NCBI RefSeq assembly: GCF_014699005.1
Contig: NZ_JACWZY010000002.1
Location: 1-64,000 of the forward strand
Length of the DNA: 64,000 bases
Direction: 5' to 3'
Source: Spirosoma profusum
Lineage (GTDB): Bacteria > Bacteroidota > Bacteroidia > Cytophagales > Spirosomataceae
Positions 8,926-61,432 of the stretch are shown piece after piece (position 1 is the stretch's first letter; each line of letters starts with the position of its first letter). The position numbers and the translations under genes are program-made. The notes below the pieces were generated by a model. The model was not told the DNA's origin and did not search any database. It saw only the letters and a list, made by a program, of their open reading frames with translations.

Positions 8926-8954
8926 GCAACGGCGAACCGTTAAAAACGTGGGTG

Positions 8955-8984
8955 CAAAAGTACTGATTCTCTCTCCTTTTGCAA
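8955..8984 (-). promoter_or_regulatory. Putative promoter of tRNA-Phe
   Basis: On the minus strand TACTTTTG (8955-8962) matches the Bacteroidota -7 box TAnnTTTG, with TTG (8982-8984) 19 bp upstream as the -33 element. The box lies 29 bp before the tRNA 5' end. Confidence 0.6.
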
Positions 8985-9066
8985 TACGTTGATTAGAAAA
9001 TTTTGAAAATAAAGTTTAGCTGTCCATATATAACATTGATTGTCAGACACACAAAGCCATACTTAA

Positions 9067-10452
9067 ATGGAGATAGTACAACAATTTTTTTTTATTGCTG
9101 CACTGGCTGTTACCGCCTGGTACATAACCAAACGGGTTCAATTAATCAGTCGTGCGATTAAATTGGGACGGCCTGAAAACCGTTTCGACCATGCTAATGA
9201 ACGCCTGAAAACGATGTTGTTGGTGGCATTTGGTCAGAAAAAGATGTTCACGAATTGGCTGGTGGGTTTAATGCACTTCGTTATCTACGCAGGCTTTCTC
9301 ATCATCAACCTTGAAATTCTTGAGATTATTCTGGATGGTGTATTAGGAACGCATCGGTTGTTTGCGCCTTATATTACGTCTATTTATCCATTCCTGATCA
9401 ATACGTTCGAGATTTTAGCATTTGGTGTTCTTGCGGTTTGCGTGGTGTTTTTATGTCGTCGGTTTGTGGCTAAAGTGAGCCGTTTTCAACCGGAACGCCA
9501 CCGCGAAATGACACGCTGGCCCCGAACGGACGCAGCCATTATTCTGATCGCTGAAATTCTGTTGATGATTGCGTTTCTGACATGGAATGCTTCTGACAGC
9601 GTGCTACGTGATCGAGGTGTCGGTCACTACGTCCATTTGCAGGGTATTGTTCCAGATTTCGTTATTAGCCAATTTCTCAAACCATTGTTTGCCGGATTTA
9701 GCGATATAGGACTGATTGCCTATGAACGTATCGCCTGGTGGGCGCACATTCTGGGAATTATGGCTTTTGCAGTCTACGTAACGTATTCAAAACACCTGCA
9801 CATTGCGCTCGGCTTCCCGAACGTGTATTTCTCCGACCTTCAGCCGAAGGGAGAAATGCAGAACATGCCCGAAATCACGAAGGAAGTTCAATTGGCTCTG
9901 GGATTACCGACCACTACTGCTGCCGACGGTTCTCAGACGAATGACAATGGCCTGCAACCCGGCGTGGATTCGCCCGCTGAAGTTGGCAGATTTGGCGCGA
10001 AAGACGTACAGGACCTGAAATGGATTAATCTGATGAACGCTTATAGCTGTACGGAGTGTGGTCGCTGTACGGCAGCTTGTCCGGCCAATATTACTGGGAA
10101 AAAATTATCGCCCCGCAAAATCATGATGGACACCCGTGACCGGCTTGAAGAAATTCAGCAGGGCTGGAAAGTCAACGGATTTGACTATAAGGACAGTAAA
10201 TCACTATTGAACGATTATATAACAGCCGAAGAACTAAACGCCTGTACTACGTGTCAGGCCTGCATAAACGCCTGCCCGATCAACATCAACCCGTTAGATA
10301 TTATTCTTCAGCTACGTCGCTATAGGGTTATGGAGGAATCGCAGGCACCAGCGTCCTGGAACGCAATGTTCAGTAATATCGAAAATAACATGGCTCCCTG
10401 GAAATTCTCCCCCAGCGACCGGTTTAACTGGGCCGAACAAGTTAATCAATAG
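9067..10452 (+). CDS. Membrane-bound iron-sulfur protein, HdrC/GlpC-like with NarI-like domain
   Basis: A 461-residue electron-transfer protein. The first 250 residues hold about five hydrophobic segments, with a cytochrome-like membrane domain. The C-terminal part carries two 4Fe-4S motifs, C328-x2-C331-x2-C334-x3-C338-P and C393-x2-C396-x2-C399-x3-C403-P. This architecture passes electrons between the quinone pool and a soluble Cys-rich partner. That partner is probably the next gene, 55 bp downstream, whose CCG-type domain is fused to such subunits in other lineages. The source of electrons is not visible; no lactate- or glycerol-3-phosphate-oxidising flavoprotein lies nearby. Confidence 0.85.
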   Translation: MEIVQQFFFIAALAVTAWYITKRVQLISRAIKLGRPENRFDHANERLKTMLLVAFGQKKMFTNWLVGLMHFVIYAGFLIINLEILEIILDGVLGTHRLFAPYITSIYPFLINTFEILAFGVLAVCVVFLCRRFVAKVSRFQPERHREMTRWPRTDAAIILIAEILLMIAFLTWNASDSVLRDRGVGHYVHLQGIVPDFVISQFLKPLFAGFSDIGLIAYERIAWWAHILGIMAFAVYVTYSKHLHIALGFPNVYFSDLQPKGEMQNMPEITKEVQLALGLPTTTAADGSQTNDNGLQPGVDSPAEVGRFGAKDVQDLKWINLMNAYSCTECGRCTAACPANITGKKLSPRKIMMDTRDRLEEIQQGWKVNGFDYKDSKSLLNDYITAEELNACTTCQACINACPININPLDIILQLRRYRVMEESQAPASWNAMFSNIENNMAPWKFSPSDRFNWAEQVNQ

Positions 10453-10507
10453 AATTGTAAAGTTGGCTGACATGTTCACAAACTCTACAACCTTACAACT
10501 TTTCAAA

Positions 10508-11308
10508 ATGACAACAGAAACTAATTATAAAGTGCCGACAATGGCCGATATGACTGCCGCAGGTGAAGAACCGGAAATTTTATTCTGGGTCGGCTGCGCG
10601 GGTTCGTTCGATGATCGGTACAAACGCGTAACAATAGCTTTCGTCCGAATTCTGAATCATGTAGGTATCAAGTTTGCTGTACTAGGGCAGGAAGAAGCTT
10701 GTACGGGCGATCCAGCACGTAGAGCGGGAAATGAATTCCTGTTTCAAATGCAGGCCGTGTCAAATATTCAGGTACTAAATGGTTACAACGTAAAGAAAAT
10801 TGTGACGGCTTGCCCACACTGTTTCAATACGTTAAAAAACGAATATCCCGAGCTGGGCGGCAATTACGACGTAGTACACCACTCTCAATTCTTGCAGGAG
10901 TTAATCAATCAGGGACGTATCAAAGTAAAAGACGGTCAGCCTTTCAAAGGGCGACGTATTACGTTTCATGATTCGTGCTATCTAGGTCGGGCGAATAAGG
11001 TTTACGAAGCCCCACGCGACGTATTAGCCGCTTTGGACGCAGATTTAGTTGAAATGAAACGTAGCAAAGCCAATGGACTTTGCTGTGGAGCCGGGGGCGG
11101 TCAATATTTTAAAGAGCCAGAACCCGGTAAAAAAGACGTGAACGTAGAAAGAGTTGAAGAAGCGCTTGGTACCGGCGCTGATACCATTGCTGTGGCCTGT
11201 CCGTTTTGCATGACCATGATGTCAGACGGCGTTAAAAACAAGAATAAAGAAGATAGTGTTCGGGTTTTCGACATATCGGAACTCATCGCGCAGGCAGAGG
11301 GGTTGTGA
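10508..11308 (+). CDS. CCG-domain iron-sulfur oxidoreductase, HdrB/LutA-like
   Basis: A 266-residue soluble protein with two cysteine-rich CCG modules: GCAGSFDDRY with VTACPHCFN in the first half, and CCGAGGGQYFKE with VACPFCMTM in the second. Such domains bind an iron-sulfur centre in HdrB, GlpC and LutA. I start at the ATG at 10508 (MTTETNYKVP). The frame extends to a TTG at 10463, but those 15 codons lie in an intergenic repeat of the type CTACAACCTTACAACTTTT. It follows the HdrC-like gene in the same direction, so the two probably form one complex at the membrane. Confidence 0.85.
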   Translation: MTTETNYKVPTMADMTAAGEEPEILFWVGCAGSFDDRYKRVTIAFVRILNHVGIKFAVLGQEEACTGDPARRAGNEFLFQMQAVSNIQVLNGYNVKKIVTACPHCFNTLKNEYPELGGNYDVVHHSQFLQELINQGRIKVKDGQPFKGRRITFHDSCYLGRANKVYEAPRDVLAALDADLVEMKRSKANGLCCGAGGGQYFKEPEPGKKDVNVERVEEALGTGADTIAVACPFCMTMMSDGVKNKNKEDSVRVFDISELIAQAEGL

Positions 11309-11314
11309 GAATAG

Positions 11315-11384
11315 TGAAAAATGGATAATGAAGAATGAATAATTTCATCTAACGCATTGTTCATTGTTCATTATCCATTTTTCA
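11315..11384. repeat. 18-bp-arm inverted repeat
   Basis: Arms TGAAAAATGGATAATGAA at 11315-11332 and its exact complement at 11367-11384. It stands between the iron-sulfur pair and the next gene, ending 8 bp before the ATG at 11393. It can act as a hairpin that ends the upstream transcript or shields the downstream start. Confidence 0.7.
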
Positions 11385-11392
11385 TTAAATCT

Positions 11393-11890
11393 ATGTACGT
11401 TGATTTTGACAAATTGTCGGATAATGCCCGGATTTGGGTGTATCAGGCTGACAGACCGCTGGCAGACACTGAAGTGAAAACGGTTGAGGAGTTGCTAAAA
11501 CCGGCGTTAAGCCAATGGGCAGCTCACGGTCAGCCATTACTGGCATCAGTAAATGTGAGCGAAAATCGGTTTGTTGTGATTGGCCTCGATGAGGAATATA
11601 GTTTACCTAGTGGCTGCTCCATTGATGATTCCGTTCGAACGCTACGTAACGTAGGGCAACAACTTGGCGTCGATTTCTTTGATCGGTCGGCGGCTGTCCA
11701 ATTGACAGATGAATCTGTCGTTACAATTTCCTTGCCAGCTATAAAAAACGCCGTTGTTGATGGACAATTGACGCCTGATACGTTCGTATTCAATACGTTA
11801 GTAAAAACGAAGGCCGAATTTTTGACAAATTGGCGGATTCGAGCGGCCAACTCCTGGTTAAGCCGATATTTCAAACAGGCAGTCGTTTAG
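11393..11890 (+). CDS. Conserved hypothetical protein, 165 residues
   Basis: Starts at the ATG at 11393 (MYVDFDKLSDNARIWVYQAD); the open frame begins earlier inside a hairpin repeat. It is soluble, with no signal peptide, and has regular alternation of strands and helices (RFVVIGLDEE, GCSIDDSVRTLRNVGQQLG, FVFNTLVKTKAEFLTNW). Proteins like this occur widely in Cytophagales, sometimes misnamed as ABC transporter ATPase; there is no Walker motif here to support that name. A strong hairpin follows the stop, so it is probably monocistronic or last in its operon. Confidence 0.75.
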   Translation: MYVDFDKLSDNARIWVYQADRPLADTEVKTVEELLKPALSQWAAHGQPLLASVNVSENRFVVIGLDEEYSLPSGCSIDDSVRTLRNVGQQLGVDFFDRSAAVQLTDESVVTISLPAIKNAVVDGQLTPDTFVFNTLVKTKAEFLTNWRIRAANSWLSRYFKQAVV

Positions 11891-11911
11891 ACGGGCCATT
11901 AGCTAAAATTT

Positions 11912-11951
11912 GCCGGTCAGGTGCTTCTAATTGCAGGAGCACCTGACCGGC
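11912..11951 (+). terminator. Hairpin terminator
   Basis: Arms GCCGGTCAGGTGCT (11912-11925) and AGCACCTGACCGGC (11938-11951) around a 12-base loop, followed by CTTTCTAGTT, 22 bp after the stop of the hypothetical gene. Confidence 0.8.
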
Positions 11952-12131
11952 TTTCTAGTTATAGGCTAACATGCTCACTGCCAAATCGTCAGAATAAACG
12001 ATTTTAAACCTTCTTTTTACACAAAGGATTAATTTTTGCTTAGAGTTTTATAAAACTCAGCGGTTTGGTTCGGGTAATTATCGAATTCGTTGAGGATTGC
12101 CATCAGGAAACGGCAATTAACTCTTACTTTT

Positions 12132-12842
12132 ATGGCGACTATTCCAGCAGTTATGTCAGACACGCCAACTCGCGACGACCGGGACCGCACCGGCGGACCG
12201 GCCGAACCGGACCAATTCTTACCCGAGGGCGATTCTATAGAACAGCCTTCGGAAGATACCCCTGCCCGCCGGTATACGGAAGAGCAGAAATATCAGGTAT
12301 TCAACAAGGAGTTTATGCCCCACATCGACTCCATGTATAATTTCGCTTTTCGCTTAACGATGGACGAGGATGATGCCAACGACCTCGTTCAAGATACGTA
12401 TTTAAAAGCGTTTAGGTTCATTTCGTCCTTTGAGCAAGGAACTAACGCAAAAGCATGGCTGTTTCGGATTCTGAAGAACAGCTTTATCAACGATTACCGT
12501 AAGAAAAGCAAAGAACCAGCTAAAGTCGATTACCAGGACGTAGAGACGACCTATAACTCGGAAGACGCTGAATCAGAGCATACGGTTGATCTGCGGGCCG
12601 AATCCGTTTCGGATTTAATCGGAGATGAAGTAGCAAATGCTTTGAACTCACTACCAGTCGATTTCCGGACCGTTATTATCCTTTGCGACATTGAAGGATT
12701 TACGTATGAGGAAATGGCAAAAATTCTGGATATTCCAATCGGTACAGTACGTTCCCGATTACACCGCGCACGTAATCTATTGAAAGAAAAATTGCGTGAT
12801 TATGCATCTTCGATGGGATATAAAGAAGAAAATGAAGAATAA
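12132..12842 (+). CDS. ECF-type RNA polymerase sigma factor
   Basis: An alternative sigma factor of about 236 residues. Region 2 is seen in MYNFAFRLTMDEDDANDLVQDTYLKAF with the core-binding helix, followed by GTNAKAWLFRILKNSFINDYRK. Region 4 is seen in LPVDFRTVIILCDIEGFTYEEMA and the recognition helix IPIGTVRSRLHRARNLLKEKL. The N-terminal 40 residues are acidic, proline-rich and unstructured. The ATG at 12132 is the first in frame; the one at 12153 (MSDTPTRDD) is an alternative. The gene is followed after 81 bp by a small cysteine-rich protein of anti-sigma type, the usual pairing for stress-responsive sigma factors. Confidence 0.93.
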   Translation: MATIPAVMSDTPTRDDRDRTGGPAEPDQFLPEGDSIEQPSEDTPARRYTEEQKYQVFNKEFMPHIDSMYNFAFRLTMDEDDANDLVQDTYLKAFRFISSFEQGTNAKAWLFRILKNSFINDYRKKSKEPAKVDYQDVETTYNSEDAESEHTVDLRAESVSDLIGDEVANALNSLPVDFRTVIILCDIEGFTYEEMAKILDIPIGTVRSRLHRARNLLKEKLRDYASSMGYKEENEE

Positions 12843-12923
12843 ACCGAACTTTTTCTAAGTCTTTTTTGGTTCTGCACATAACTTAATGGTATTATTATTC
12901 TTGGAATAAATTAAATTTTTCCA

Positions 12924-13214
12924 ATGCAAACCTCGTTGCCAACGTCATCTTCATCCAGTGCCAGGCCTGAGATGAAAGAGCATTGCAGTCACAGTGCAGA
13001 CTGCTTGAAGATGATTCAATTGATTCTGGATGGAGAAGCTACTGAACAGGAGCTTGCTCGGGTGAAAGCAAATCTGGAGTCCTGTAAACCATGTATCGAG
13101 ATGTATCATCTCGAAAAAGAAGTGAAAGAGTTACTGACTAAACGAATTGAAAAACGGTGCTGCCCTGAGCAGCTGGTGGCAACGATTAAATCTCGTATTC
13201 TGAGTTTTAGTTAA
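12924..13214 (+). CDS. Small cysteine-rich anti-sigma factor
   Basis: A 96-residue soluble protein. HCSHSADC and LESCKPCIEMYH frame a helical segment (MIQLILDGEATEQELARVKANL), the arrangement of zinc-binding anti-sigma domains of the RsrA/ZAS kind, in which a His and three Cys hold zinc and redox stress releases the sigma factor. A further CC pair stands near the end (EKRCCPEQL). It lies 81 bp after the ECF sigma gene in the same direction and is probably its direct antagonist. No membrane segment is present, so it should act in the cytoplasm. Confidence 0.83.
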   Translation: MQTSLPTSSSSSARPEMKEHCSHSADCLKMIQLILDGEATEQELARVKANLESCKPCIEMYHLEKEVKELLTKRIEKRCCPEQLVATIKSRILSFS

Positions 13215-13228
13215 TAGGAATTTCTCCG

Positions 13229-13277
13229 ATTGGGGTAATTAAGGAATGCTTCAGGAAGCGGCCTTAATTACCCCAAT
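13229..13277 (+). terminator. Hairpin terminator
   Basis: Perfect 16-bp arms, 13229-13244 (ATTGGGGTAATTAAGG) and 13262-13277, 17-base loop, followed by TAATTTTAAAA. It ends the sigma/anti-sigma transcript. Confidence 0.8.
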
Positions 13278-13309
13278 TAATTTTAAAAAGTTGTAGTTGA
13301 TTACGTTAG

Positions 13310-13945
13310 TTGTCAGCTTATTACGACGAACAAACCAATCATAACTTGGACGGCAAACTTATTATTTTTTCAGCCCCTTCTGGGTCGGGTAAAACCACCA
13401 TCGTTAAGCATCTGCTGGCCGAGAACACCAATCTCGGCTTTTCCATTTCGGCCTGCACCCGCGACCGGCGGGGGCGTAGTGAAGAAAACGGAAAAGATTA
13501 TTATTTTCTGACACCCGAAGAATTCAAAAATAGGATCGACAAGAACGAATTTGTTGAGTGGGAGGAAGTCTATACCGGTGCTTTTTACGGAACACTTAAG
13601 GCTGAAATTCAGCGCGTTTGGGATAGCGGTAAACACGTACTGTTCGATGTAGACGTTCAGGGTGGCCTGAAGCTGAAGAATTTTTACGGCGATAAGGCAT
13701 TAGCCGTGTTTGTGAAAGTTCCCGACGAGGAAACGTTACGTCAGCGCCTGATTGGGCGTGGTTCTGAAACCGAAGAAAGCCTGTCACGACGGTTGTTTAA
13801 AGTTCACTTTGAAATGAGTTTTCAGGACCAATTCGATGTGATCCTGATGAACGACGATCTCGATACGTCTTTACAGAAAGCTCAAAAACTGGTCGATGAT
13901 TTCGTAAACGAAAACAAAACCCCCGCAAAAGGAACGGTAATTTAG
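13310..13945 (+). CDS. gmk: Guanylate kinase
   Basis: Phosphorylates GMP to GDP with ATP. The P-loop APSGSGKTT lies near the N-terminus, and the GMP-binding part includes [21 protein letters not shown] and [16 protein letters not shown]. The lid [17 protein letters not shown] is intact, and the length (about 211) is normal. There is no ATG in any frame between the upstream stop (TAG at 13307) and the P-loop, so translation must begin at a TTG, either 13310 or 13346 ([12 protein letters not shown] in frame). It is followed by nadD after 64 bp in the same direction. Confidence 0.95.
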
Positions 13946-14009
13946 AAGTTCAGAACGCGTTAGTCCCAGCGGCCAACGGCAGCGCGACCTATAACATTAA
14001 AACGCAATA

Positions 14010-14582
14010 ATGAATATTGGCTTATTCTTCGGTTCCTTCAATCCTATCCACGTGGGGCACCTGATTATTGCCAACACAATGGCTACGACTACCGACCTGC
14101 AACAGGTATGGTTTGTCGTGTCGCCCCAAAACCCGTTTAAGAAAACGAAAAGCCTGCTGCACGAATTCGACCGACTCGACATGGTCGAACGAGCCATTGC
14201 TGATAACAGCCGCCTGAAAGCCACGAATATTGAGTTTTCGATGCCGAAACCGAGCTATACCATCGATACGTTGGTGCGGCTGAGTGAAAAGTATCCCCAG
14301 CATACCTTCCGGCTGATCATGGGCGAAGACAATCTGGAGCAGTTTGCCAACTGGAAGAATTACGATAAGATCCTGGAATTTTACGGCCTCTACGTTTACC
14401 CTCGCCCTAAAAGCAAAGAAAGCCCGTTCAAAACCCATCCTAACGTCCGCCTGGTCGAAGCGCCCTTGCTCGATATTTCTGCTACGTTCATCCGCGATAG
14501 CATCCGTGCTAATCGGTCAATACGTTATATGGTCCCCGACGTAGTGGAAGAAATGATTGAGCGGAAGAAGTTTTACGTGTAG
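14010..14582 (+). CDS. nadD: Nicotinate-nucleotide adenylyltransferase
   Basis: Forms deamido-NAD from nicotinate mononucleotide and ATP, the penultimate step of NAD synthesis. The nucleotidyltransferase signature GLFFGSFNPIHVGHLIIA opens the protein, and LLDISATFIRDSI near the C-terminus is the second conserved motif (normally ISSTxIR). The length of 190 residues is standard. It lies 64 bp downstream of gmk, so the two nucleotide enzymes probably share a transcript that ends in a 20-bp-arm hairpin just after the stop. Confidence 0.96.
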   Translation: MNIGLFFGSFNPIHVGHLIIANTMATTTDLQQVWFVVSPQNPFKKTKSLLHEFDRLDMVERAIADNSRLKATNIEFSMPKPSYTIDTLVRLSEKYPQHTFRLIMGEDNLEQFANWKNYDKILEFYGLYVYPRPKSKESPFKTHPNVRLVEAPLLDISATFIRDSIRANRSIRYMVPDVVEEMIERKKFYV

Positions 14583-14588
14583 CGCATG

Positions 14589-15037: not shown

Positions 15038-15078
15038 TGCGCTCTTTCGCTCTTTCACCCTTTCATTCTTTGGCTCGC

Positions 15079-19573: not shown

Positions 19574-20491
19574 ATGAGCTTATTGACCGTTGGTTCCGTT
19601 GCCTTCGACGCGCTGGAAACCCCTTTTGGCAAAACTGATAAAATTATCGGTGGTGCTGCTACGTATATTACGCTTTCGGCGTCGTATTTCACGAAGAAAA
19701 ATAACCTGGTTGCCGTTGTGGGCGATGATTTTCCACAATCGATGATTGACGATCTGGAACAGCACGGCGTCAATACCGAAGGGCTGGAGATTCGGAAAGG
19801 GGAGAAGACGTTTTTCTGGTCGGGGAAGTATCATAACGATATGAACACCCGCGATACGGTGGAGGTGCAGTTAAACGTAATGGAAAACTTCAATCCGGCC
19901 ATTCCTGATTCGTATCAGGATTGCCAATACCTGATGCTGGGTAACACGGCGCCCGCCATTCAGAGTATGGTCATCGACCGGCTACACAATCGGCCAAAAC
20001 TGATTGTGCTCGATACGATGAACCTATGGATCGAGATTGCAAACGCCGACCTGATGAATTTGCTGAAGCGGGTCGACGTATTAGTGCTGAACGATGAAGA
20101 AGCCCGAATGCTCACTCATGATTATTCGCTGGTGAAAGCGGCCGCGAAAATTCAGTCGATGGGTCCGAAAACAGTTATCATTAAAAAAGGCGAACATGGT
20201 GCGCTGCTGTTCGGCGAGGGACGTATTTTCTTTGCGCCCGCGCTACCTCTGGAAGAAGTATTTGACCCAACCGGCGCAGGCGATACGTTTGCCGGTGGCT
20301 TTATCGGTCATCTGGTCAAAACCGACGATATTTCGTTCGATAACATGAAACGGGGTATTATTTACGGCTCGGCGATGGCTTCGTTCTGCGTCGAAAAATT
20401 TGGTGCCGAACGTATCATGAACCTGACAGAGGAAGAAATTCAAACCCGTGTCAATGAATTCGTTACGTTATCCGCATTTGGACTGGAGTAA
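19574..20491 (+). CDS. PfkB-family sugar kinase
   Basis: A 305-residue ribokinase-type enzyme. The closing signature DPTGAGDTFAGGFIGHL carries the catalytic Asp, VLNDEEARML is the substrate/ATP-binding turn, and GGAATYITLSASYF near the N-terminus is the sugar-binding element. Family members phosphorylate sugars or nucleosides; this one is not specific enough to name. It follows the GNAT-like gene in the same direction, with a hairpin terminator 30 bp after the stop. Confidence 0.92.
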   Translation: MSLLTVGSVAFDALETPFGKTDKIIGGAATYITLSASYFTKKNNLVAVVGDDFPQSMIDDLEQHGVNTEGLEIRKGEKTFFWSGKYHNDMNTRDTVEVQLNVMENFNPAIPDSYQDCQYLMLGNTAPAIQSMVIDRLHNRPKLIVLDTMNLWIEIANADLMNLLKRVDVLVLNDEEARMLTHDYSLVKAAAKIQSMGPKTVIIKKGEHGALLFGEGRIFFAPALPLEEVFDPTGAGDTFAGGFIGHLVKTDDISFDNMKRGIIYGSAMASFCVEKFGAERIMNLTEEEIQTRVNEFVTLSAFGLE

Positions 20492-20521
20492 CGTAACAAT
20501 CTGACGTAGTAATTTACTGAG

Positions 20522-20553
20522 ACTTCCCGGAGCAGATACCTGTTTCGGGAAGT
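20522..20553 (+). terminator. Hairpin terminator
   Basis: Arms ACTTCCCG (20522-20529) and CGGGAAGT (20546-20553), followed by TGCTTTTTAT. It stands between the sugar kinase gene and a convergent gene. Confidence 0.8.
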
Positions 20554-20587
20554 TGCTTTTTATACGGCCTCAAACAGGCACGCTACG

Positions 20588-21361
20588 TTAGGAAAATACT
20601 TTGGTTAGTTTCCGTTCTAAGTCCTTCTCCAGTTTCAGTAAACCTTCGGTATTTGGCAAATACGTTAACGCTCGGTGATGACGTAGATCAAACGGAATAT
20701 CGGCCACCGATTGCGTAATTGGAACAACTAGTTTACCAAGTGTATGCGCTACGCCCGTTTCGTAAAATACGTTCGGATTGCGGTCGGTGAAGTCGGTGAT
20801 GACGGCTTTCGAGGTGAAAATCAGGTCGAATACGTCCTGAATCAGGATGCTATTATCCCAGATGTCGTCGGCGCGTCGACACTCCACGCCTAGTCTTCGG
20901 CAAACGTTACGTATGGCAGTGTACGTACCCGAAAATTTTCCATCAAACGGCATCATTACCGACAGTACGTTGCTGTCAAGCGATTTATCAGGAATCCGAA
21001 AAACATCAGGGGCGAACGTAATAACCCGCTCGGGCTGCCGTGTCTGTACAGTTGAAACAAATTCTGGAATACTGACAGGACGTTGGTTTTGGGTTTGTTT
21101 TTTTGCTTCGATAAAACGCTCTATTTCATACAAATTGCTCGCATTTTCACTGATCAATTTTGATAAAACCTGTAAGCTATTCCCCTCATAATCATCATCT
21201 TTAAAGTCCAGACTACGTAACAAACGCGGGTGGTCTTCGATTAACTCAATGCTGTCGGTAAGATAGCCAATCTTAAGCCAGTCGGATTTGGTAAAATAAA
21301 GCTGAATGAATTCATGTAAGGCGAACAGACGAAGTGTTTTGAACTTGTTTTGTCTAGTCAT
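20588..21361 (-). CDS. Nucleoside 2-deoxyribosyltransferase-like protein with helical N-terminal domain
   Basis: A 257-residue protein in two parts. Residues 130-245 carry a Rossmann-like domain: VLSVMMPFDGKFSGTY, CRRADDIWDNSILIQDV, AVITDFTDRNPNVFYETGVA, VVPITQSVADIPFDL. This pattern (MPF...RADD...TDRNPNVFYE) is a recognisable family related to nucleoside 2-deoxyribosyltransferases and TIR-like NAD enzymes, where the Glu after FYE is likely catalytic. Residues 1-95 are helical and resemble an effector-associated adaptor domain (LLRSLDFKDDDYEGNSLQVLSKL). Such combinations occur in bacterial immune effectors, so a defence role is plausible but unproven. It stands alone between the sugar kinase and the LRR genes. 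Confidence 0.8.
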   Translation of the reverse strand: MTRQNKFKTLRLFALHEFIQLYFTKSDWLKIGYLTDSIELIEDHPRLLRSLDFKDDDYEGNSLQVLSKLISENASNLYEIERFIEAKKQTQNQRPVSIPEFVSTVQTRQPERVITFAPDVFRIPDKSLDSNVLSVMMPFDGKFSGTYTAIRNVCRRLGVECRRADDIWDNSILIQDVFDLIFTSKAVITDFTDRNPNVFYETGVAHTLGKLVVPITQSVADIPFDLRHHRALTYLPNTEGLLKLEKDLERKLTKVFS

Positions 21362-21545: not shown

Positions 21546-22967
21546 ATGATACACATTTATCTAATTATCAGTAGTTTTTTTTGTAAGCTACGTAGCATTC
21601 CTCTCTATCTTGTCAAATTAGTTAGCCTTATATTAATCGTTGCTTTGCCGGGGCGAGCGCAGGAAGTGTTCATTACGTCCAGCAACGATTTAGCCTGTGC
21701 GCAGTTAAGTGCTACATTGAGCGCAACAACTACCTGTAGTGGTACTGGTACTGTTACGTATTCGTTTCGTGGACCGAATAGTTTTAGCTTAGTCAATACA
21801 ACTGGAGTCGCCAGCGTAACGGCAAGTAATACTGCCGGTGCATGCATAGCCAGTAATACGGTCTTGGTAGGCAGCAGTCTGCATCCTGACTATTTACCCC
21901 TGGTCGACTTTTTTAACTCGACAGGTGGTCCTAACTGGATAGACAAGACAGGGTGGCTTACTAATTGTGATCCGTGTAACGGATGGTTCGGTATAACCTG
22001 TACGGATGGCAGAGTTACACGTTTATCATTAGTTACAGATTCCGGTATTATTGGCAGTAATAATTTAAACGGAAATCTTCCATCGAGCATTGGTAAATTA
22101 AACAAACTTAGATCCCTGAGATTAAATAACAATAATAACTTGACAGGCACCATTCCAGAAAGTTTTAGTCAACTAACTGATTTACAGGAATTACATATTT
22201 TCTATAGTGGATTAAGCGGGACTATTATGGATAAGCTGGTCAACTTGACTCAGCTGGAAACTATTATTCTGACCTATTCTAAATTCACTGGCCCTATACC
22301 AGAAAGTATCAGTGCATTAACCAAGCTTAAAGTAATTGCTTACCCCTCAAATGGGGTATTTGGATTCACGGGTTCATTACCAGCTAGTCTAAGTGCTTTA
22401 ACTGGTTTGGAATATCTAGCATTGGATGGTAACCGATTAACAGGGACTATACCACCCGGCCTGGGTCAACTGACGAACTTAATAAGCATTAATTTGTCGG
22501 GTAATCTGTTAGCGGGGCCGATTCCGAGTGAACTAGGTAATTTAGTGAACTTAAGTAGTTTATATCTATCTTATAATCAACTATCTGGCAGTCTCCCGGC
22601 TAGCCTAGGTAATCTGCCTAGTCTAAATCAACTTTTGCTTCGTAAGAACTTCCTTTCCGGCTGTATTCCATTATCATTCAATTCACTATGTGGCAAAGAT
22701 GTTCAGCTTGAGGAAAACCTTGACTTACCCGCCTGGAGTGAATTCTGTTTTAATGGAACAAACAACCTGGCATCCAATAAAGCCGGAAGTTGGTTCGATC
22801 CGACGGTTTGGTCGTGTGGAAAGGTGCCTACTCTAAAAGATTACGTAACAATAAGACATAATGTATCGCTTCCGGCAATCCAGTCCGGGCAGAGCCGGAA
22901 GATTATTTATAAGAGTGGTGGGGGACTCAATTATGATTCTGGAAGTAAGTTGAGAATTGGCCAATGA
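21546..22967 (+). CDS. Secreted leucine-rich-repeat protein, plant-type repeats
   Basis: A 473-residue exported protein. The signal peptide (about residues 1-38) ends at GRAQ. An Ig-like or adhesion-type region (about 40-105) follows, then a cap (DFFNSTGGPNWIDKTGW, NCDPCNGWFGITC) similar to the N-terminal cap of plant LRR receptors. About nine repeats of the LxxLxLxxNxLxGxIPxxLGxL kind come next, and a C-terminal module (WFDPTVWSCGKVPTLKDYVTI) common in Bacteroidota surface proteins. It is probably a surface adhesin or binding protein. A near copy follows immediately, so this is the intact member of a tandem duplication. It ends in GQ with no obvious sorting domain. Confidence 0.9.
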   Translation: MIHIYLIISSFFCKLRSIPLYLVKLVSLILIVALPGRAQEVFITSSNDLACAQLSATLSATTTCSGTGTVTYSFRGPNSFSLVNTTGVASVTASNTAGACIASNTVLVGSSLHPDYLPLVDFFNSTGGPNWIDKTGWLTNCDPCNGWFGITCTDGRVTRLSLVTDSGIIGSNNLNGNLPSSIGKLNKLRSLRLNNNNNLTGTIPESFSQLTDLQELHIFYSGLSGTIMDKLVNLTQLETIILTYSKFTGPIPESISALTKLKVIAYPSNGVFGFTGSLPASLSALTGLEYLALDGNRLTGTIPPGLGQLTNLISINLSGNLLAGPIPSELGNLVNLSSLYLSYNQLSGSLPASLGNLPSLNQLLLRKNFLSGCIPLSFNSLCGKDVQLEENLDLPAWSEFCFNGTNNLASNKAGSWFDPTVWSCGKVPTLKDYVTIRHNVSLPAIQSGQSRKIIYKSGGGLNYDSGSKLRIGQ

Positions 22968-24239
22968 CACATCTATTTCATTATCAGTATGATTTGCTAC
23001 TATCTACGTATCGTTTCTCTTCAACTCGCCATTCTTGGCTCTATTCTAATTGCGACTTTACCGTGCCGAGCACAGGTAGCTTCGGTTACGCTTACTTCCA
23101 GTAACGATATAGCCTGCTCAAATTTAAGTTCTACGTTACAAGCTCTATCTTCCTGCAATGAGTCCCTTACCTACTTATTTGCAGGACCCAATGGCTTTAA
23201 TGAAATCAATACAACAGGCTCCGTGAACGTAACGGTAAGCGGTGTTTTCAGCGTAACAGTAACTAATGATGCTGGAACGTGCGTTGCTAGTAATACAGTT
23301 TTAGTAGGTAGCAGCTTGCATCCGGATTATCAGTCCTTAGTTGATTTTTACAACTCAACGGGCGGCCCCAACTGGACGAATAAAACAGGATGGATAACGA
23401 ATTGTGATCCTTGCAGCGGATGGTTTGGAATAACTTGTACAGAAGGTAGAGTAACAAGCTTGTCAATGACCTCAAATTCTGGCGTTGGGGTAATAGTTTA
23501 AAAGGTACTTTCCCATCAAGTATTGGCGGTTTAACGGAGCTTAAAAAGCTGATTTTACCATATAATTATGGCGACTTTAATGGAACTATACCAAGTAGCT
23601 TTACCGCTCTCAGTAAACTGCAGGAATTAAACTTATCCTTCAACGGATTTAGTGGAAGTATTCTTGACAAGCTGACTGGATTGACTCAATTAGAAAATAT
23701 AAACTTGTCGTATAATAGTTTTAGTGGAACTATACCTGAAAATATTAACGCGCTGACAAAATTAAAAGGGCTTAATCTTTTTGCCAATAGAGTGTTTCCG
23801 GATTCGCCAACTGGAATATCGGGTACAATTCCTGCTAGTCTTGGCGAGCTAACAAGTTTAGAGAATCTATTCTTAGGTTATAATCGACTATCTGGTTCAA
23901 TACCCTCTGGATTGGGTCAACTAGCCAATCTGAGAATACTTATTTTAGCAAGTAACCAATTAACCGGCAGCATTCCGACTAGTCTAGGGATTCTTGTTAA
24001 TGTAAGAAGTTTTGATTTAAGTAGAAACCAATTAACAGGTAGTATTCCGACAAGCCTTGGTAATCTAACTAATGTTGAATCTATTGATCTGAGTGTCAAT
24101 CAATTAACAGGAGAGATTCCAGTTACGCTGGCCGGGTTAACTAAGATGTGGTCTTTACTATTGTATTACAATCAACTCTCCGGTCAAATTCCTGCTTTTC
24201 TTGGTACGTTACCTAATTTGTCTCAAATGCACTTAAGTA

Positions 24240-25245
24240 ACGTGAATTATGGATAAAGGCGTTTTTGAATGGGCACCACAATGGAAGGCTTTTGATCGTA
24301 AAAACAATAGGCAATCAAGCCGCCTAACACGTTAGTCTGGCCATTGACCGCACTCCGATGCCGGGTATGCTCTGTATCAAAGACCGAGGTGAGCAGGTCA
24401 TTGACCGACTCAATGAGTCCCCGTTTGCGTAGATTCACTTTAGCGCTTAAGGGTATCAATGTATTTTTCATCCGGCGCCGAAGTTTAGTGATAAGCTGCA
24501 AACCGCGTGCGTAGAAGTCCGCAAACAGGTTCGTTAAGTAGCCTCGGTCTCCGAAACAGGACCCTTGTAAATCCGCTAAGAGTTCTGGTAAGAGACTTTT
24601 GTTGTTGTCGGCTACATTACCCGGAGTGAGTACAAAGTTGATTAGCTCCCCATACTGATTGATGACTAAATGGGCTTTCAGGCCATAAAACCAGCCCATT
24701 GACGATTTGCCGCGAGCAGCCATACCGGCAAAGACCTTGTTAGTGTGGATACGGTGATTGTCGCAAACGGCCAGCGATTTGCTATCGACGATGTAGAAGC
24801 CGGTTCGGCGTCCCTGGGCGCAGAGCCATTTTAAGAGCAGAAACAAACCTGGTAGCAGGCGGGGCATGCGGGCCACAAACCGTTCGTAGCTAATCAGATG
24901 GGGGAAGTAAGTCTGCATCTGAGCTTCGACCCAATGCTCATAGTAATACTGGAAGCATTTGGCTCCTGAGTGATGGTAGAAAATAGTGATGGCTAACATC
25001 TCGCTGTCGCTCAGGGTTGATGGCCGGCTTGTGGGCAGGCAATTGTGTTGGGTTTGCCACTGAGTCAGGGCATTACAGAAATCATCACAAGTGATGAATA
25101 TTTCGATGAGCTTGTTTGCTTTATCTTCGCGGAGCATAGGGGCAAAAGGGGAGAAATGATACTTAGCCGTACAAATCTCAACAACTTTTGCACTCTATGC
25201 GCTTTATATCAATGACTTACAATCTCCATTATCCATAATTCACGT
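24240..25245 (-). mobile_element. IS982-family insertion sequence
   Basis: A complete 1,006-bp element. Terminal inverted repeats are perfect over 17 bp: ACGTGAATTATGGATAA at 24240-24256 and its complement at 25229-25245. The 6-bp target TAAGTA is duplicated on both sides (24234-24239 and 25246-25251). It is inserted in the last LRR repeats of the second LRR gene, and its transposase reads against the LRR genes. Confidence 0.92.
24247..25137 (-). CDS. IS982-family transposase
   Basis: 296 residues, uninterrupted, filling the insertion sequence. DDE residues stand in FYIVDSKSLAVCDN (first Asp), CFGDRGYLTN (second Asp, after the GNVADN region) and in the later RGLIESVNDLL (Glu). Sequence features such as FAGMAARGKSSMGWFYGLKAH match the family. 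The start is the ATG at 25137. The reading frame and both terminal repeats are intact, so the element may still be able to move. Confidence 0.93.
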   Translation of the reverse strand: MLREDKANKLIEIFITCDDFCNALTQWQTQHNCLPTSRPSTLSDSEMLAITIFYHHSGAKCFQYYYEHWVEAQMQTYFPHLISYERFVARMPRLLPGLFLLLKWLCAQGRRTGFYIVDSKSLAVCDNHRIHTNKVFAGMAARGKSSMGWFYGLKAHLVINQYGELINFVLTPGNVADNNKSLLPELLADLQGSCFGDRGYLTNLFADFYARGLQLITKLRRRMKNTLIPLSAKVNLRKRGLIESVNDLLTSVFDTEHTRHRSAVNGQTNVLGGLIAYCFYDQKPSIVVPIQKRLYP

Positions 25246-25574
25246 TAAGTAACAACCAATTCTCTGGCTGTATTCCCTCATCACTCACGGCACTCTGTGG
25301 CAGAAACATTAATATTGATAACAACAATAATTTACCTTCTTGGATCGAATTCTGTTCTACCGGTGCCAACAGTTTAGTATCTATAAAAGATGGTAACTGG
25401 TTTGATTCGACAGTTTGGTCGTGCGGACGAGCGCCAACCATAAAAGATTACGTAACCATTCAGCATAGCGTATTAATTCCAGGCTCATTGTCTGGGCAAA
25501 GTCGGAAAATCATTTATGGAAACGGAGGACGACTTAGATATGGGGGAACTGGTAAACTGAGAATTGGTCAATAA

Positions 25575-25618
25575 CTCCAATAAAATAGCCCGCTACGTAG
25601 CGGGCTATTTTATTGGAG
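25575..25618. terminator. 44-bp perfect palindrome, probable terminator
   Basis: Arms of 22 bp meet without a spacer at 25596/25597 around CTACGTAG; the ends are CTCCAATAAAATAGCC and its complement. It stands directly after the LRR pseudogene stop and 10 bp before the convergent nagB stop, so it could end transcription from both sides. Confidence 0.75.
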
Positions 25619-55725: not shown

Positions 55726-55760
55726 TAGCTTCTAACTGCAACCATTTGATTGCTACGTAC

Positions 55761-56210: not shown

Positions 56211-56324
56211 AAAGGGTTGAATTTAGAAGTTGAAAGAGTTCGTCTAATGAAGATGCATCTTCATGACATAATCCATAATTTCTTTCTATTTTCTGTCATA
56301 TAATTTTCAGAATGTTGCTAAATG

Positions 56325-56362
56325 CAGAAACCGGCGCCTTCCTTTAGCGGAAAGCGCCGGTT
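56325..56362 (-). terminator. Hairpin terminator
   Basis: Arms GAAACCGGCGC (56325-56335) and GCGCCGGTTTC (56352-56362), in the gap downstream of sdhB. It is the likely end of the sdhCAB operon. Confidence 0.75.
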
Positions 56363-56382
56363 TCGTGTTTACTAGTAATTGA

Positions 56383-57141
56383 TTATCCGTTGATGTTATC
56401 GGAGGTCAGTTTGGCACCCAGATATTCGCGGTTAAGTCGGGCAATATGATCGAGCGAAATAGATTTTGGGCATTCAACGGAACAAGCGCCTGTAAACGAA
56501 CAGGCTCCAAAGCCTTCGGCATCCATCTGCGCCACCATGCGCTCGGCCCGTTCTTTATGCTCAGCCTGACCTTGCGGCAGAATCGCCAGTTGCGATACTT
56601 TAGCGGCCACAAACAACATGGCTGATGCGTTTTTGCAGGCCGCTACGCAGGCTCCACAACCGATGCAGGCTGCAGCATCCATCGCTTCATCGGCAATGGT
56701 ACGTGGGATCAGGATTTCGTTGGCATCGCGGGCAGAACCTGTGTTCACCGATACGTAACCCCCCGATTGAATAATCCGGTCGAAGGCGAGTCGGTCAACC
56801 ATCAAATCTTTAATGACGGGGAATGACCGCGCCCGCCAGGGTTCAACCACAATCGTATCGCCGTCGTTGAACGACCGCATATGCAACTGGCACGTAGTAG
56901 CGCCCGTTTGCGGACCGTGTGGCCGCCCGTTGATATACATTGAACACGTACCGCAGATACCTTCGCGACAGTCGTGGTCGAAGGCAACGGGTTCTTCGCC
57001 TTTGCGGGTCAGCGAATCGTTCAATACGTCGAACATTTCCAGAAAAGACATATCCTCCGATACGTTATCCAGTTGATATTCAACCAGCTTTCCTGCCGTA
57101 TTAATATTTTTCTGTCTCCAGACTTTCAGTGTAATTTTCAT
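56383..57141 (-). CDS. sdhB: Succinate dehydrogenase iron-sulfur subunit
   Basis: 252 residues with a ferredoxin-like domain ([17 protein letters not shown], then TTCQLH) that holds the [2Fe-2S] cluster, and two cysteine motifs, [11 protein letters not shown] and [12 protein letters not shown], for the remaining clusters. It passes electrons from FAD in SdhA to the membrane subunit. It is the last gene of the sdhCAB set. Confidence 0.95.
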
Positions 57142-57144
57142 CCT

Positions 57145-57283
57145 ACAAAAAGTTGTAAGGTTATACTGTTGTAGAGTTATAAGGTTTTAGGGTTATAAGG
57201 TCATAAAGTTGTAGGGTTCCAGAGTGAGTTGCCCACGTAACACTTTATAACGCTATAACTTTACAGCCATACAACTTTATACC
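57145..57283. repeat. Low-complexity repeat between sdhA and sdhB, family C
   Basis: 139 bp of repeated units like TTGTAGAGTTATAAGGTT, with complementary units (ACTTTATAACGCTATAACTTT) near the sdhA end, so the RNA can fold on itself. A short relative (CTACAACCTTACAACTTTT) occurs at about 10486-10504, before the CCG-domain gene. Confidence 0.7.
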
Positions 57284-59221
57284 TTATTTATAACTCCGCT
57301 GTGTCAGTTTCACGTTTTCAAATATGAGTGCCTCTTTGTTGAGGAGTTCGGGGTTTCCTTCTCCCTGATACTCCCAAGCGGCTGCGTAGGCGTAATTGGC
57401 GTCATCGCGAAGGGCTTCGCCGTCGGGTGTCTGGTATTCCTCGCGGAAGTGACCGCCACACGATTCGTTCCGGTTGAGGGCATCGTCAACCATCAGTTCG
57501 CCCAGTTCAATGAAATCCGCCACGCGAGAAGCTTGTTCCAGTGCCTGATTCATTTCATCGGCGTCGCCCAGTACTTTGGCATTGGTCCAGAACTCCTTAC
57601 GTAGCGCCTGAATTTTTTCCTTGGCGATTTTTAAGCCTTCGGCCGTCCGCGACATACCACAGTATTCCCACATGATATGCCCTAATTCTTTATGCAAATC
57701 ATCAACTGGACGCTGCCCTTTGATGGACATCAGTTTCTTGATCTGCTCCTGAATCTTCTGCTCGGTTTCCTTAAACGCAGGTGAATCGACGGGGATTTTA
57801 TCGCCAGGGCCAATGGTAGCCAGGTAATCGCCAATAGTATACGGAATTACGAAATACCCATCAGCAAGGCCCTGCATCAGTGCCGATGCCCCAAGCCGGT
57901 TAGCGCCGTGGTCGGAGAAGTTTGCTTCACCAAGCGCGTATAAACCAGGAATGGTTGTCATGAGGTTGTAATCGACCCAGAGGCCTCCCATCGTATAGTG
58001 AACCGCCGGGTAAATCATCATCGGTACCTCATATGGGTTTTCGCCGGTGATTTTTTCGTACATCTCGAACAGGTTACCGTATTTGGCTTCGATCGTTTTT
58101 TGCCCATCACGCTTGATAGCATCGGCAAAATCCAGATAAACAGCCAATCCCGTTTTGGCGACCCCACGCCCTTCATCACACATGTTTTTCGCATTTCTGG
58201 ATGCTACGTCACGTGGCACGAGGTTCCCAAAGGATGGGTACCGACGTTCGAGGAAATAGTCACGCTTATCCTCAGAAAGATCATTGGGGCTCATCTGCCC
58301 TTTCCGAATTTTCTCTGCGTCTTCTTTGGTCTTAGGTACCCATACCCGCCCATCGTTACGTAGTGATTCTGACATCAACGTCAGTTTCGACTGGTAATGA
58401 CCCGATACCGGAATGCAGGTTGGGTGAATCTGCGTGAAGCAGGGATTGCCAAATACAGCACCTTTTTTGTGTGCCCGCCAGGCAGCCGTTACGTTACAGC
58501 CCATGGCATTGGTCGACAGGTAAAATACGTTACCATAACCACCTGTACAAAGTAGCACAGCGTGGGCCGAATGCGATTCAATTTTCCCCGTAATCAGGTT
58601 TCGGGTAACGATACCACGTGCTTTACCACCTTCCACGACGAGATCGAGCATTTCGGTACGTGTAAACAGCTTTACTTTCCCGTTTGCCACCTGACGGCTC
58701 AGCGCCGAATAGGCACCTAGCAACAGTTGTTGGCCGGTCTGGCCACGGGCGTAGAATGTACGCGACACCTGCGATCCACCAAACGAGCGGTTAGCCAGTA
58801 AGCCGCCGTACTCGCGTGCGAAGGGAACGCCCTGCGCTACGCATTGGTCAATGATATTGACACTCACTTCGGCCAGTCGATGCACGTTGCCTTCACGCGC
58901 GCGGTAATCGCCACCTTTGATGGTATCGTAGAACAGCCGAAATACGCTGTCACCATCGTTCTGGTAGTTTTTGGCAGCATTAATACCCCCCTGCGCAGCA
59001 ATCGAGTGTGCCCGTCGAGGACTATCCTGATAACAGAATGCCTTTACGTTATAGCCTAATTCGGCCAGCGATGCGGCAGCCGATGCACCGGCCAGACCCG
59101 TACCAACTACAATAATTTCGTACTTACGTTTATTGGCTGGGTTAACAAGTTTCAGCGCAAACTTATGCCGTGCCCATTTTTCGGCTAGAGGGCCTTCGGG
59201 GATTTTAGATTCCAGTTTCAT
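57284..59221 (-). CDS. sdhA: Succinate dehydrogenase / fumarate reductase flavoprotein
   Basis: 645 residues. FAD-binding motif [34 protein letters not shown] (His for covalent FAD), active-site residues in [10 protein letters not shown], and the FAD-closing [18 protein letters not shown]. It oxidises succinate to fumarate in the TCA cycle. The length and context fit the Bacteroidota type B enzyme. Its ATG sits beside a family B hairpin. Confidence 0.95.
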
Positions 59222-59223
59222 GC

Positions 59224-59355
59224 TTTAAAGAGCGAAAGACTGAAAGAGCGAAAGAGCGAAATCGGACTGCCGAAGCAGAGTAACTCACTATCAAAGAAGT
59301 GAATTTTTGACGTAAACTATCCGCCATTCACTCTTTCGCTCTTTCACTCTTTAAA
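59224..59355. repeat. Start-proximal hairpin repeat, family B, copy 4
   Basis: Outer arms TTTAAAGAGCGAAAGACTGA and ...TCGCTCTTTCACTCTTTAAA, with an unpaired centre of about 65 bp. It fills the gap from the sdhC stop to the sdhA start, with one arm directly before the sdhA ATG. Confidence 0.75.
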
Positions 59356-60046
59356 TAATATGGTGAACCTGTAAATACACATAAATAGGCATGGCTGCGA
59401 AGGCCGCCGGAATGATAATGGCAAAGAAATATTTACCCAGAAACTCAATGATGGGCGTGTATTTTTTGTGCCGCAGACCTAACGTCTGAAAACCACTCTG
59501 GAAACCATGCCACAGGTGATAGCCGATAGCTACCATGCAGATGACGTAAAGGATAACGTACCACAATTCGCCAAAAGCCACCTGCACAACAGCATACAAA
59601 TCTTTGTACTCTTTGCCGTCGTACTCCGCCATCGGAACTGAACCGAAGTGCATCTCGTACCAGAACGTCCGCATGTGAATGATGATGAACAGCAATAAGA
59701 CTGTACCCAGAATACCCATGTTGCGCGATGCCCAAGCGCTATTCGCTTCGGGTTTGCTGTAGGCATACTTTATGGGTCGCGAGGCCTGATTGTGGCGCGT
59801 CAGAATGAAAGCCATCAGCGCGTGAACCAGGATAGAGGTGTAGAGCACATACGAAATGGTCATGATCAGCGGATTGTGCGTCATGAAATACGTATACTCG
59901 TTGAAAGCCCGACCGCCATCGCCTTTAAATAACTGGAGATTGCCGGCCATATGAATAATCAAAAATGAACAGAGAAATAACCCCGTCAGCGACATAATGA
60001 CCTTTCTGCCGAGGGAGCTTGATAGAGTTTGTGTTACCCAAGCCAT
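59351..60046 (-). CDS. sdhC: Succinate dehydrogenase cytochrome b subunit
   Basis: About 231 residues starting at the ATG 60046 (MAWVTQTLSSSLGRK). Five membrane helices and heme-ligand His residues (LIIHMAGN, LVHALMAF, IIHMRTFW, YHLWHGFQSG) fit the single-subunit diheme cytochrome of Bacteroidota. It passes electrons to menaquinone. The frame extends to 60112, but that portion is not hydrophobic. It leads the operon. Confidence 0.93.
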   Translation of the reverse strand: MAWVTQTLSSSLGRKVIMSLTGLFLCSFLIIHMAGNLQLFKGDGGRAFNEYTYFMTHNPLIMTISYVLYTSILVHALMAFILTRHNQASRPIKYAYSKPEANSAWASRNMGILGTVLLLFIIIHMRTFWYEMHFGSVPMAEYDGKEYKDLYAVVQVAFGELWYVILYVICMVAIGYHLWHGFQSGFQTLGLRHKKYTPIIEFLGKYFFAIIIPAAFAAMPIYVYLQVHHII

Positions 60047-60437
60047 AGGATGAACGACACGTAATTTTAGTGGTAAACGATTGAAAAAAAGCCGGTTTGA
60101 ACGGCGCATCAAAACTAAAGCACAAACCCGATGGAAACAAGATTAAGCACCTTTATCCGCAGGTTTACTGCTTATTTACAGTCGGTATAAATTAGACTAA
60201 ATAGAATGAGTGATGACGTAACGGAATGTTGGGGTATATGGTTGTGTTAATGGAATTATCTTGCCAACGTAGCGGCCATATCCTTACAAAGCCAATCTGA
60301 GACGTAGCAGTTAGTAACGTAGTAATCATCTGAAAATAAACGTATTACTGTTTTCGGATGAATTCGTTTTTGAACAAAGCGTATTATCCAGCTAATTTGC
60401 GGCCATTCGCTGTTTCATTGACTAATCTGTTTTTAAC
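60047..60437. other. Intergenic region between sdhC and fabD
   Basis: 391 bp between divergent genes. It contains no convincing gene, RNA or clear consensus promoter, but several ACGTA/TACGT pentamers are present. Promoters for both sdhCAB and fabD should lie here. Confidence 0.6.
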
Positions 60438-61313
60438 ATGAAAGCATACGTATTTCCTGGTCAGGGTTCACAATTTCGCGGTATGGGACTGGACCTCTAC
60501 CAGAACTCAGAGACCGCCCGCCGATTGTTTGACCAGGCTAACGAAGTACTGGGTTATAACTTGACCACCATTATGTTTGAAGGCTCAGACGAAGACCTCA
60601 AACAAACCATTTATACTCAACCCGCTGTTTTTTTGCACGGAGTTGCCATGGCTTTATCGGCAGAATCGTTTGCTACTGATATGGTTGCGGGCCACTCACT
60701 GGGAGAACTGTCGGCACTGACGGCAGCGGGCGTACTTTCTTTTGAAGATGGATTACGTCTGGCGTCGGTACGTGCCACAGCCATGCAGCGTGCCTGTGAA
60801 CTAGTAGCATCGACTATGGCTGCCGTGCTCAATCTGCCCGATGACGTTATCGAGAGAATCTGCGCAGAAATTACTGAAGAGGTTGTAGTACCAGCCAACT
60901 ACAACTGCCCCGGTCAGGTTGTGATTTCGGGTAGTGTACTCGGTATTCAGTTGGCAGAAGAGAAATTAAAGGCGGCTGGTGCCAAACGGGTGCTTCAACT
61001 GGCGGTCGGAGGAGCGTTTCATTCGCCCTTCATGGAGCCAGCACGTACCGAGTTTGCCGAAGCGGTAGAATTAATGCCATTCAAGGCTCCCCGCTGCCCA
61101 GTCTATCAGAATGTAAATGCGCAACCCGTAACCGATCCTACACAACTCAAGGCCAATCTCATTGCCCAATTGACTTCGCCCGTTCGCTGGACACAATCGG
61201 TCGAGCGTATGATAGCCGATGGTGCCACCGAATTTTTGGAATGCGGACCGGGTAAAGTATTGCAGGGGCTTATTAAAAAGATAAATCCATCTATTTCGGT
61301 CGCGGGTATCTAG
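60438..61313 (+). CDS. fabD: Malonyl-CoA:ACP transacylase
   Basis: 291 residues. The nucleophile Ser87 is in GHSLGELSALTAAG, His195 in GGAFHSPFM, and the opening YVFPGQGSQFRGMGLDLY is the family signature. It moves malonyl from CoA to acyl carrier protein for fatty-acid synthesis. No other fab genes are next to it, so it is separated from the main fab cluster. A tRNA-Gln gene follows. Confidence 0.95.
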   Translation: MKAYVFPGQGSQFRGMGLDLYQNSETARRLFDQANEVLGYNLTTIMFEGSDEDLKQTIYTQPAVFLHGVAMALSAESFATDMVAGHSLGELSALTAAGVLSFEDGLRLASVRATAMQRACELVASTMAAVLNLPDDVIERICAEITEEVVVPANYNCPGQVVISGSVLGIQLAEEKLKAAGAKRVLQLAVGGAFHSPFMEPARTEFAEAVELMPFKAPRCPVYQNVNAQPVTDPTQLKANLIAQLTSPVRWTQSVERMIADGATEFLECGPGKVLQGLIKKINPSISVAGI

Positions 61314-61383
61314 GTTTTGCCAGCGTAGTAAGGACCATATAAAGCGTTGGTATACGAAATCGCTATTTTTTTTCAGAACTGCG

Positions 61384-61416
61384 TTTGCTTTTGACGCCTG
61401 TTACCTGTTATCTTTG
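61384..61416 (+). promoter_or_regulatory. Putative promoter of tRNA-Gln
   Basis: TTTG at 61384-61387, 21 bp, TATCTTTG at 61409-61416, an exact match to the Bacteroidota TTTG/TAnnTTTG promoter, 17 bp before the tRNA. Confidence 0.65.
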
Positions 61417-61432
61417 CACTCGCAAACGCGGA

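Follow-up and report, generated by a model that had tools for sequence, protein, structure and literature searches.

Why should one pentamer recur throughout a stretch of chromosome and be nearly absent from its left end? The question is raised by the first 64,000 nucleotides (the window) of contig NZ_JACWZY010000002.1 of Spirosoma profusum, part of an 8.73-Mb genome designated G000 here; other genomes are cited under further G-numbers. An earlier note had reported that TACGT and its complement ACGTA were strongly over-represented across the core of the window (8926–61432), and had offered a protein-binding or segregation motif, a methylase-protected site, biased repair or mutation, or an analogue of cyanobacterial HIP1 as possible causes. 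The excess was confirmed, but the pentamer did not stand as the true word, which is the longer asymmetric octamer 5′-ACGTANYR, with a strict CGT core and soft outer positions. In a few Spirosoma, most of all G000, the genome looks as though every mutation producing this word were favoured from within the cell.

The word behind the pentamer

TACGT occurred 215 times and ACGTA 218 times in the whole window, with 208 and 213 occurrences (421 together) at 8926–61432, one of each at 2521–8580 and two of each at 1–8925. The note's count of about two sites for 2521–8580 was therefore exact, and its 13 sites in the example stretch 20461–21240 were recovered as nine plus seven occurrences forming 13 distinct ACGT cores with flanking T or A. 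Both strands of 8926–64000 carried 429 copies of ACGTA, whereas a first-order Markov model predicted 97. Against codon shuffles that left all proteins and the overall codon usage of 51 genes unaltered, TACGT was found 195 times in genes against 51.9 expected (z 24) and ACGTA 181 times against 53.7 (z 21). Shuffles within genes gave expectations of 55.6 and 57.7, and the excess over shuffles was 3.1–3.8 times. The core spacers (7,259 bases) held 49 ACGTA on both strands against 13.0 predicted by the Markov model, a density not higher than that of genes (49 in 7.3 kb and 376 in 47.9 kb). As the note had observed, synonymous choice was affected: CTA CGT encoded 24 of 66 Leu-Arg pairs (1.8 expected) and AAC GTA 31 of 61 Asn-Val pairs (7.8 expected). 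Its argument that such a pattern is unlike protein-level selection holds. The note would have abandoned the claim had the excess vanished under models of codon and dinucleotide composition or been limited to the window; it survived both models and extended through G000, in which TACGTA was counted 8,618 times and its reversed word 1,237 times. The counts for CTACGTAG (765, against 116 for the reversed word) were likewise given as evidence of a genome-wide excess. The reversed patterns were ATGCAT for TACGTA and RCNATGCA for ACGTANCR; the control for occupancy of permitted places was ATGCANYR.

The octamer was defined by its flanks. With the A of ACGTA numbered 0, position 6 was C in 53% and T in 29% of copies, position 7 was A or G in 74%, and C was rare (10%) at position −1. 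These preferences were faint in codon-shuffled genes and present in the 38 spacer sites counted. With A, C or G directly ahead of ACGTA (82, 20 and 38 copies), positions further left showed no consistent preference, and recognition therefore looks one-sided. The best form, ACGTANCR, was found 173 times in genes against 18.4 expected (9.4 times the codon shuffle), and ACGTANGN 20 times against 18.5; the whole of G000 contained 25,962 ACGTANCR and 1,524 copies of the reversed pattern. Both the pentamer and the palindrome TACGTA were rejected as the true word in favour of ACGTANYR. The palindrome in it is limited to the ACGT core, and a TACGTA consists of two copies that overlap. The motif-rich core at 8926–61432 contains 195 ACGTANCR (3.7 per kb) and 277 ACGTANYR (5.3 per kb).

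Copies were indifferent to strand, codon frame, and gene or spacer. The strands were balanced in the window core (98:98), over eight tiles of G000 (415:394) and, relative to the sign of the GC skew, over 15 tiles of a 5.79-Mb contig of genome G119 along which the skew changes sign (296:299); no polarity along the replication arms of the Chi or KOPS type was found. Nor were copies spaced apart from each other: 807 of them were clumped (variance/mean 1.67 per kb, against 1.0–1.1 for three control words), with no helical or regular spacing and the coding period of 3 as the sole period. The mean spacing was one ACGTANYR per about 190 bases, and the specificity about 12–13 bits.

Gain of copies in rich genomes

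The word was surveyed in 36 Spirosoma genomes, in a family search of 222 genomes and in an order sample of 98. By TACGTA density, based on rounded genome sizes except for G000, five of the 36 were classed as rich: G000 (987 per Mb), G128 (893), G130 (789), G103 (598) and G119 (561), the next being near 400. In the family search the ratio of ACGTANCR to its reversed pattern was 7 to 17 in these five, 5.6 and 5.7 in two genomes of a second genus (G242 and G243), 3.3–4.0 in four intermediates (G123, G115, G126 and G120), and about 2.6 at most in the remainder. The flank preferences of G000 were shared by the four other rich Spirosoma, both pooled (369 sites) and singly (141–404 sites each), and were absent from poor Spirosoma (1,658 sites), here and in significance tests meaning those neither rich nor intermediate. 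They were weaker in the second genus (678 sites) and in G115 (310), and little was left of them in G126 (390). Against uniqueness of the word, some genomes of the order sample reached TACGTA/ATGCAT ratios of 4–8 (G001, 444:57; G054, 854:130), yet these had only about 110–155 TACGTA per Mb; we read these ratios as a product of a scarce control word. The next densest genome of that sample outside the rich Spirosoma had about 307 per Mb. No report of an ACGTANYR-type word in Spirosoma was found in the open-licence literature searched. In a sister genus, g4 (among G073 and G180–G226), RCNATGCA was about 1.2–8 times commoner than ACGTANCR, meaning either that ACGT words are avoided there or that TGCA words are favoured.

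The rich genomes did not group in an sdhA tree of 34 of the 36 genomes (G121 and G122 left out, G127 partial), in which several forks were weak. A second tree, of 20 genomes, drew on first and second codon positions in the rpo region and in four genes of the sdh region (11,456 columns); 15 of its 17 inner branches were well supported, and it forced five changes of the rich/poor label. Each rich genome was placed among poor relatives, G000 being sister to G112, G098 and G117, all of them poor. Octamer identity in general was about 0.19–0.32 for any pair of genomes compared. Against 21–26% for ordinary octamers, 70–72% of word sites in the four other rich genomes were also sites in G000, and rich pairs shared 1.6–3 times the independent expectation; poor pairs shared more. 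Common descent was not inferred from these shared exact sites, because much of the sharing is accounted for if each genome has filled places that are permitted in both.

Gain of copies was assessed by classing each possible synonymous change from the poor-genome consensus as creating, breaking or neutral, in five rich and 15 poor genomes over 29 alignment rows (11 from the rpo region and 18 window genes); many genomes were missing in some rows, and one row from the rpo region, a frame of 69 codons, is possibly no gene at all. In the rich genomes, creating transversions were fixed at 23 of 68 opportunities, against 1,402 of 21,014 (6.7%) for neutral ones (p 4e-11), and creating transitions at 7 of 16 against 4,567 of 23,268 (19.6%; p 0.024). 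Breaking changes were correspondingly rare, at 10 of 265 against 5,969 of 44,282 (p 2e-7). The poor genomes showed no bias toward gain (25 of 192 against 18,699 of 143,460; p 1.0). Creating changes overall stood at 30 of 84 in rich and 25 of 192 in poor genomes. An earlier test based on 70% agreement, which is uninformative at saturated sites, gave 7 gains of 89 in G000, none in other rich genomes and 0–4 in poor ones; another, which hinted at transversions, treated as many as six relatives at one site as independent observations and was not relied on.

Enrichment was graded by similarity to the word. Relative to poor genomes (for this comparison, those left after removal of the five rich ones, the four intermediates and six that branch deeply), ACGTANCR was enriched 13.9 times in G000 and 6.6 times in the other four rich genomes. 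Near-matches followed by grade in G000 (ACGTANTR 6.6 times, ACGTTNCR 2.8 times), while single changes within the CGT core stood at 0.62–0.93 times in G000 and 0.64–1.53 times in the other four. Among genomes with over 150 protein-permitted places, G000 filled 144 of 275 (52%) with the word, G128 56 of 159 and G130 55 of 170, compared with 6.5–12.4% in ten poor genomes; G103 and G119 fall outside this range, and the control ATGCANYR occupied 11 of 169 places in G000. In conserved rpo-region genes, ACGTANYR reached 4.2 per kb in G000, 1.7–2.8 in the other four rich and 0.5–1.5 in the 15 poor genomes.

Candidate causes of the bias

The reading that we tentatively favour is a genome-wide, site-by-site fixation bias toward ACGTANYR, imposed by a sequence-specific factor and acting as a drive. 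A protein that recognises the sequence would lie behind it and would favour each copy singly, whatever base change was required. The least certain part is the drive itself, which would act during repair or gene conversion, by settling the strand to be retained where a newly arisen copy is mismatched with the old sequence, rather than through a benefit to the cell. Copies would then build up in long-resident DNA toward saturation of the places that proteins permit. Among the causes listed in the earlier note, a motif recognised by a protein fits best, because base preferences reach as far as three bases from ACGTA on one side and are seen again in the four other rich genomes; a polar motif for segregation or recombination is not supported, there being no strand bias. 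The note's biased repair or mutation process is unsupported in its simple form, as creating transitions and transversions were both over-fixed, and a bias favouring all kinds of base change therefore counts against simple mutation models. A broader proposal, possible though more doubtful than the drive itself, is an undescribed genome-writing system of Spirosomaceae that could be exchanged or switched: a sequence-specific factor other than a DNA methylase that would force the octamer into any resident DNA by whatever base change was required, would have been switched on separately in several lineages of Spirosoma and in one other genus, and would thereby mark native DNA. Since five rich species, each among poor relatives, carry the same word, an association approach could lead to the responsible gene, and the case bears on the general question of why some genomes, HIP1 bearers and others, fill with one short word.

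Several points weigh against a drive. No responsible protein was identified. Mismatch repair copes best with transitions, yet transversions show the larger ratio here. Breaking changes were mildly rare in poor genomes as well (60 of 738; p 4e-5), and part of the breaking signal is therefore conserved position. The p values are optimistic because the opportunities of the five genomes share alignment columns and, for creating changes, number only 84. With synonymous sites so close to saturated, the data do not distinguish five gains from a single ancient trait that was lost repeatedly. Finally, the pattern of fixation would look no different if each copy were selected for something it does, and fixation data alone cannot separate drive from benefit per copy.

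Such weak selection on every copy (scaled strength about 2–3) is the strongest rival, although we consider it somewhat unlikely. The word would be bound by an abundant protein that organises the chromosome or serves in self-marking, for example one shielding native DNA from a nuclease. Besides predicting a fixation record identical to that of drive, it would account for a soft specificity like that of binding affinity and for native DNA that is marked beside acquired DNA that is not; under a simple equilibrium model, enrichments of 13.9 and 6.6 times would correspond to scaled strengths of 2.6 and 1.9. A benefit should, however, fall with copies nearby, yet the spacing is clumped, and a uniform effect in coding DNA, spacers and conserved rpo genes is odd for a function. 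Drive was preferred over benefit per copy because neighbours seem not to weaken the effect and because genes, strands and spacers are alike.

Biased DNA uptake, by which competent cells would prefer word-bearing DNA and recombination would spread the word, is improbable. In its favour are the lack of polarity and, as for the uptake sequences treated in the sections of PMC1939737 drawn on here, over-representation graded by match with no other function needed. The word, however, at about 12–13 bits and one per about 190 bases, is far shorter and denser than the 9–10-base uptake sequences of those sections, and nearly every fragment would therefore already qualify for uptake. A literature search found no sequence-specific uptake in this family.

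Methylation-directed mismatch repair, proposed by Elhai for HIP1 in the parts of PMC4390886 cited here, has a similarly poor chance. In that model a methylase marks the new copy and misleads repair into keeping it, which predicts a non-polar bias that acts in both directions and at each site singly. The specificity is softer than would suit a methylase. The note's methylase-protected site may still apply, but in four Pfam families no DNA-methyltransferase gene common to the five rich genomes was found. PF00145 was present in 23 of the 36 Spirosoma and, among the rich, in G000 alone. PF01555 (27 of 36) gave no match in G000 or G103, and PF02086 (14 of 36 chosen genomes) none in G000, G130 or G103. 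PF02384 occurred in 34 of 36, including all five rich genomes; among 305 open frames at 21 loci, of which 19 belong to the rich five and two to G126, none was common to the five at E 1e-15. This comparison left out short matches in frames of 285–319 codons, which are common in poor genomes and lacking in G000. A shared methylase of PF01555, PF02384 or PF02086 is thus not supported as the cause, with room left for other families or for unrelated enzymes sharing one target. RecC (PF04257) was likewise not supported, with no match in 36 chosen genomes (33 Spirosoma) and a positive Escherichia coli control; AddAB was not searched.

A bias confined to a single kind of mutation, for instance through deamination or Vsr-like T:G repair, is largely refuted and very improbable. 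In its favour, ACATA, one transition away, was depleted in genes (31 against 67.5), and at locus L131 of G000 (G000:C22:455000-474900), together with L001 and L013, the gene for a C5-cytosine methylase adjoins a Vsr gene. The pair was nevertheless rejected as the cause: it lies in a motif-poor island (0.35 ACGTANYR per kb) and was probably acquired, because the surrounding DNA is motif-poor; it is not common to the other rich genomes, and G103 and G119 have neither gene. The over-fixed creating transversions (23/68 against 1402/21014) and the ratios given above for CGT-core neighbours of every type also speak against such a bias. Vsr-like remnants were seen at G128:C61:191634-191844 (two pieces) and G130:C11:882053-882259 (internal stop). 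Composition, codon usage or chance, for which a mildly common CpG (1.22) might be cited, is refuted by the Markov model and the codon shuffles (z above 20), relatives of similar composition lacking the word.

Acquired DNA and known systems

The word tells long-resident from newly acquired DNA, and the suggestion that it marks native sequence was borne out by the island and by other acquired stretches, which are without it or poor in it. The left island (1–8925) has four pentamers and no ACGTANYR, and encodes a mobilisation relaxase, a MobC/NikA-like protein and a TraG/VirD4 coupling protein; at 1440–4659 of this mobilizable island, consecutive HMGL/aldolase-like, Fe(II)/2-oxoglutarate hydroxylase-like and ATP-grasp ligase-like genes are arranged as in a small biosynthetic cluster. 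A second motif-poor stretch lies inside the core at 21757–25449; it has three gaps longer than 900 bases and carries genes for an LRR protein and for a DDE transposase (24247–25137). A second contig of G119 (17 kb) includes a 12-kb part without ACGTANYR.

The hairpin noted at 25575–25618 is a perfect inverted repeat centred on CTACGTAG, hence on two overlapping copies of the word, and may be terminator-like. Other words were scarce. GATC in 8926–64000 was found 117 times in genes against 200 in codon-preserving shuffles and 20 times in spacers against 39; CGCCGC was absent from genes (25 expected). GTGCAC was nearly missing from G000 sequence (window core and L132–L136; 2 against 22.9 relative to poor Spirosoma), which looks like restriction-site avoidance.

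Among known systems, Chi and KOPS are likewise short and asymmetric, and they too are frequent in core DNA but scarce in islands. They are known for strand polarity; the Spirosoma word, at 296:299 relative to GC skew, is not polar and is therefore not Chi- or KOPS-like. Very-short-patch repair by Vsr resembles it as a repair process that enriches one word. Vsr repair acts on T:G mismatches only, whereas in Spirosoma transversions are favoured too and gain is not restricted to T:G transitions.

The closest known systems are HIP1 of cyanobacteria and uptake sequences. In the cited parts of Elhai (2015, PMC4390886), HIP1 and alternate HIPs are very frequent short words genome-wide, patchy between relatives, with one-base deviations mostly at outer positions; the Spirosoma word resembles them in each respect and in its strong genome-wide excess in genes and spacers. 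The analogy drawn by the note thus held in behaviour and failed in form, HIP1 there being a sharp GC-rich palindrome at about one site per 1000, against an asymmetric soft octamer with an N at one per about 190 bases. The host family, moreover, belongs to Bacteroidota, and no matching methylase was found in the four Pfam families. The uptake sequences of Pasteurellaceae and Neisseriaceae, for which the cited sections of PMC1939737 describe graded molecular drive, differ in being longer and much less dense, and the Spirosoma word is not denser in spacers than in genes. They share with it a strict core, softer flanks, near-matches enriched by grade of similarity, and a drive-like gain.

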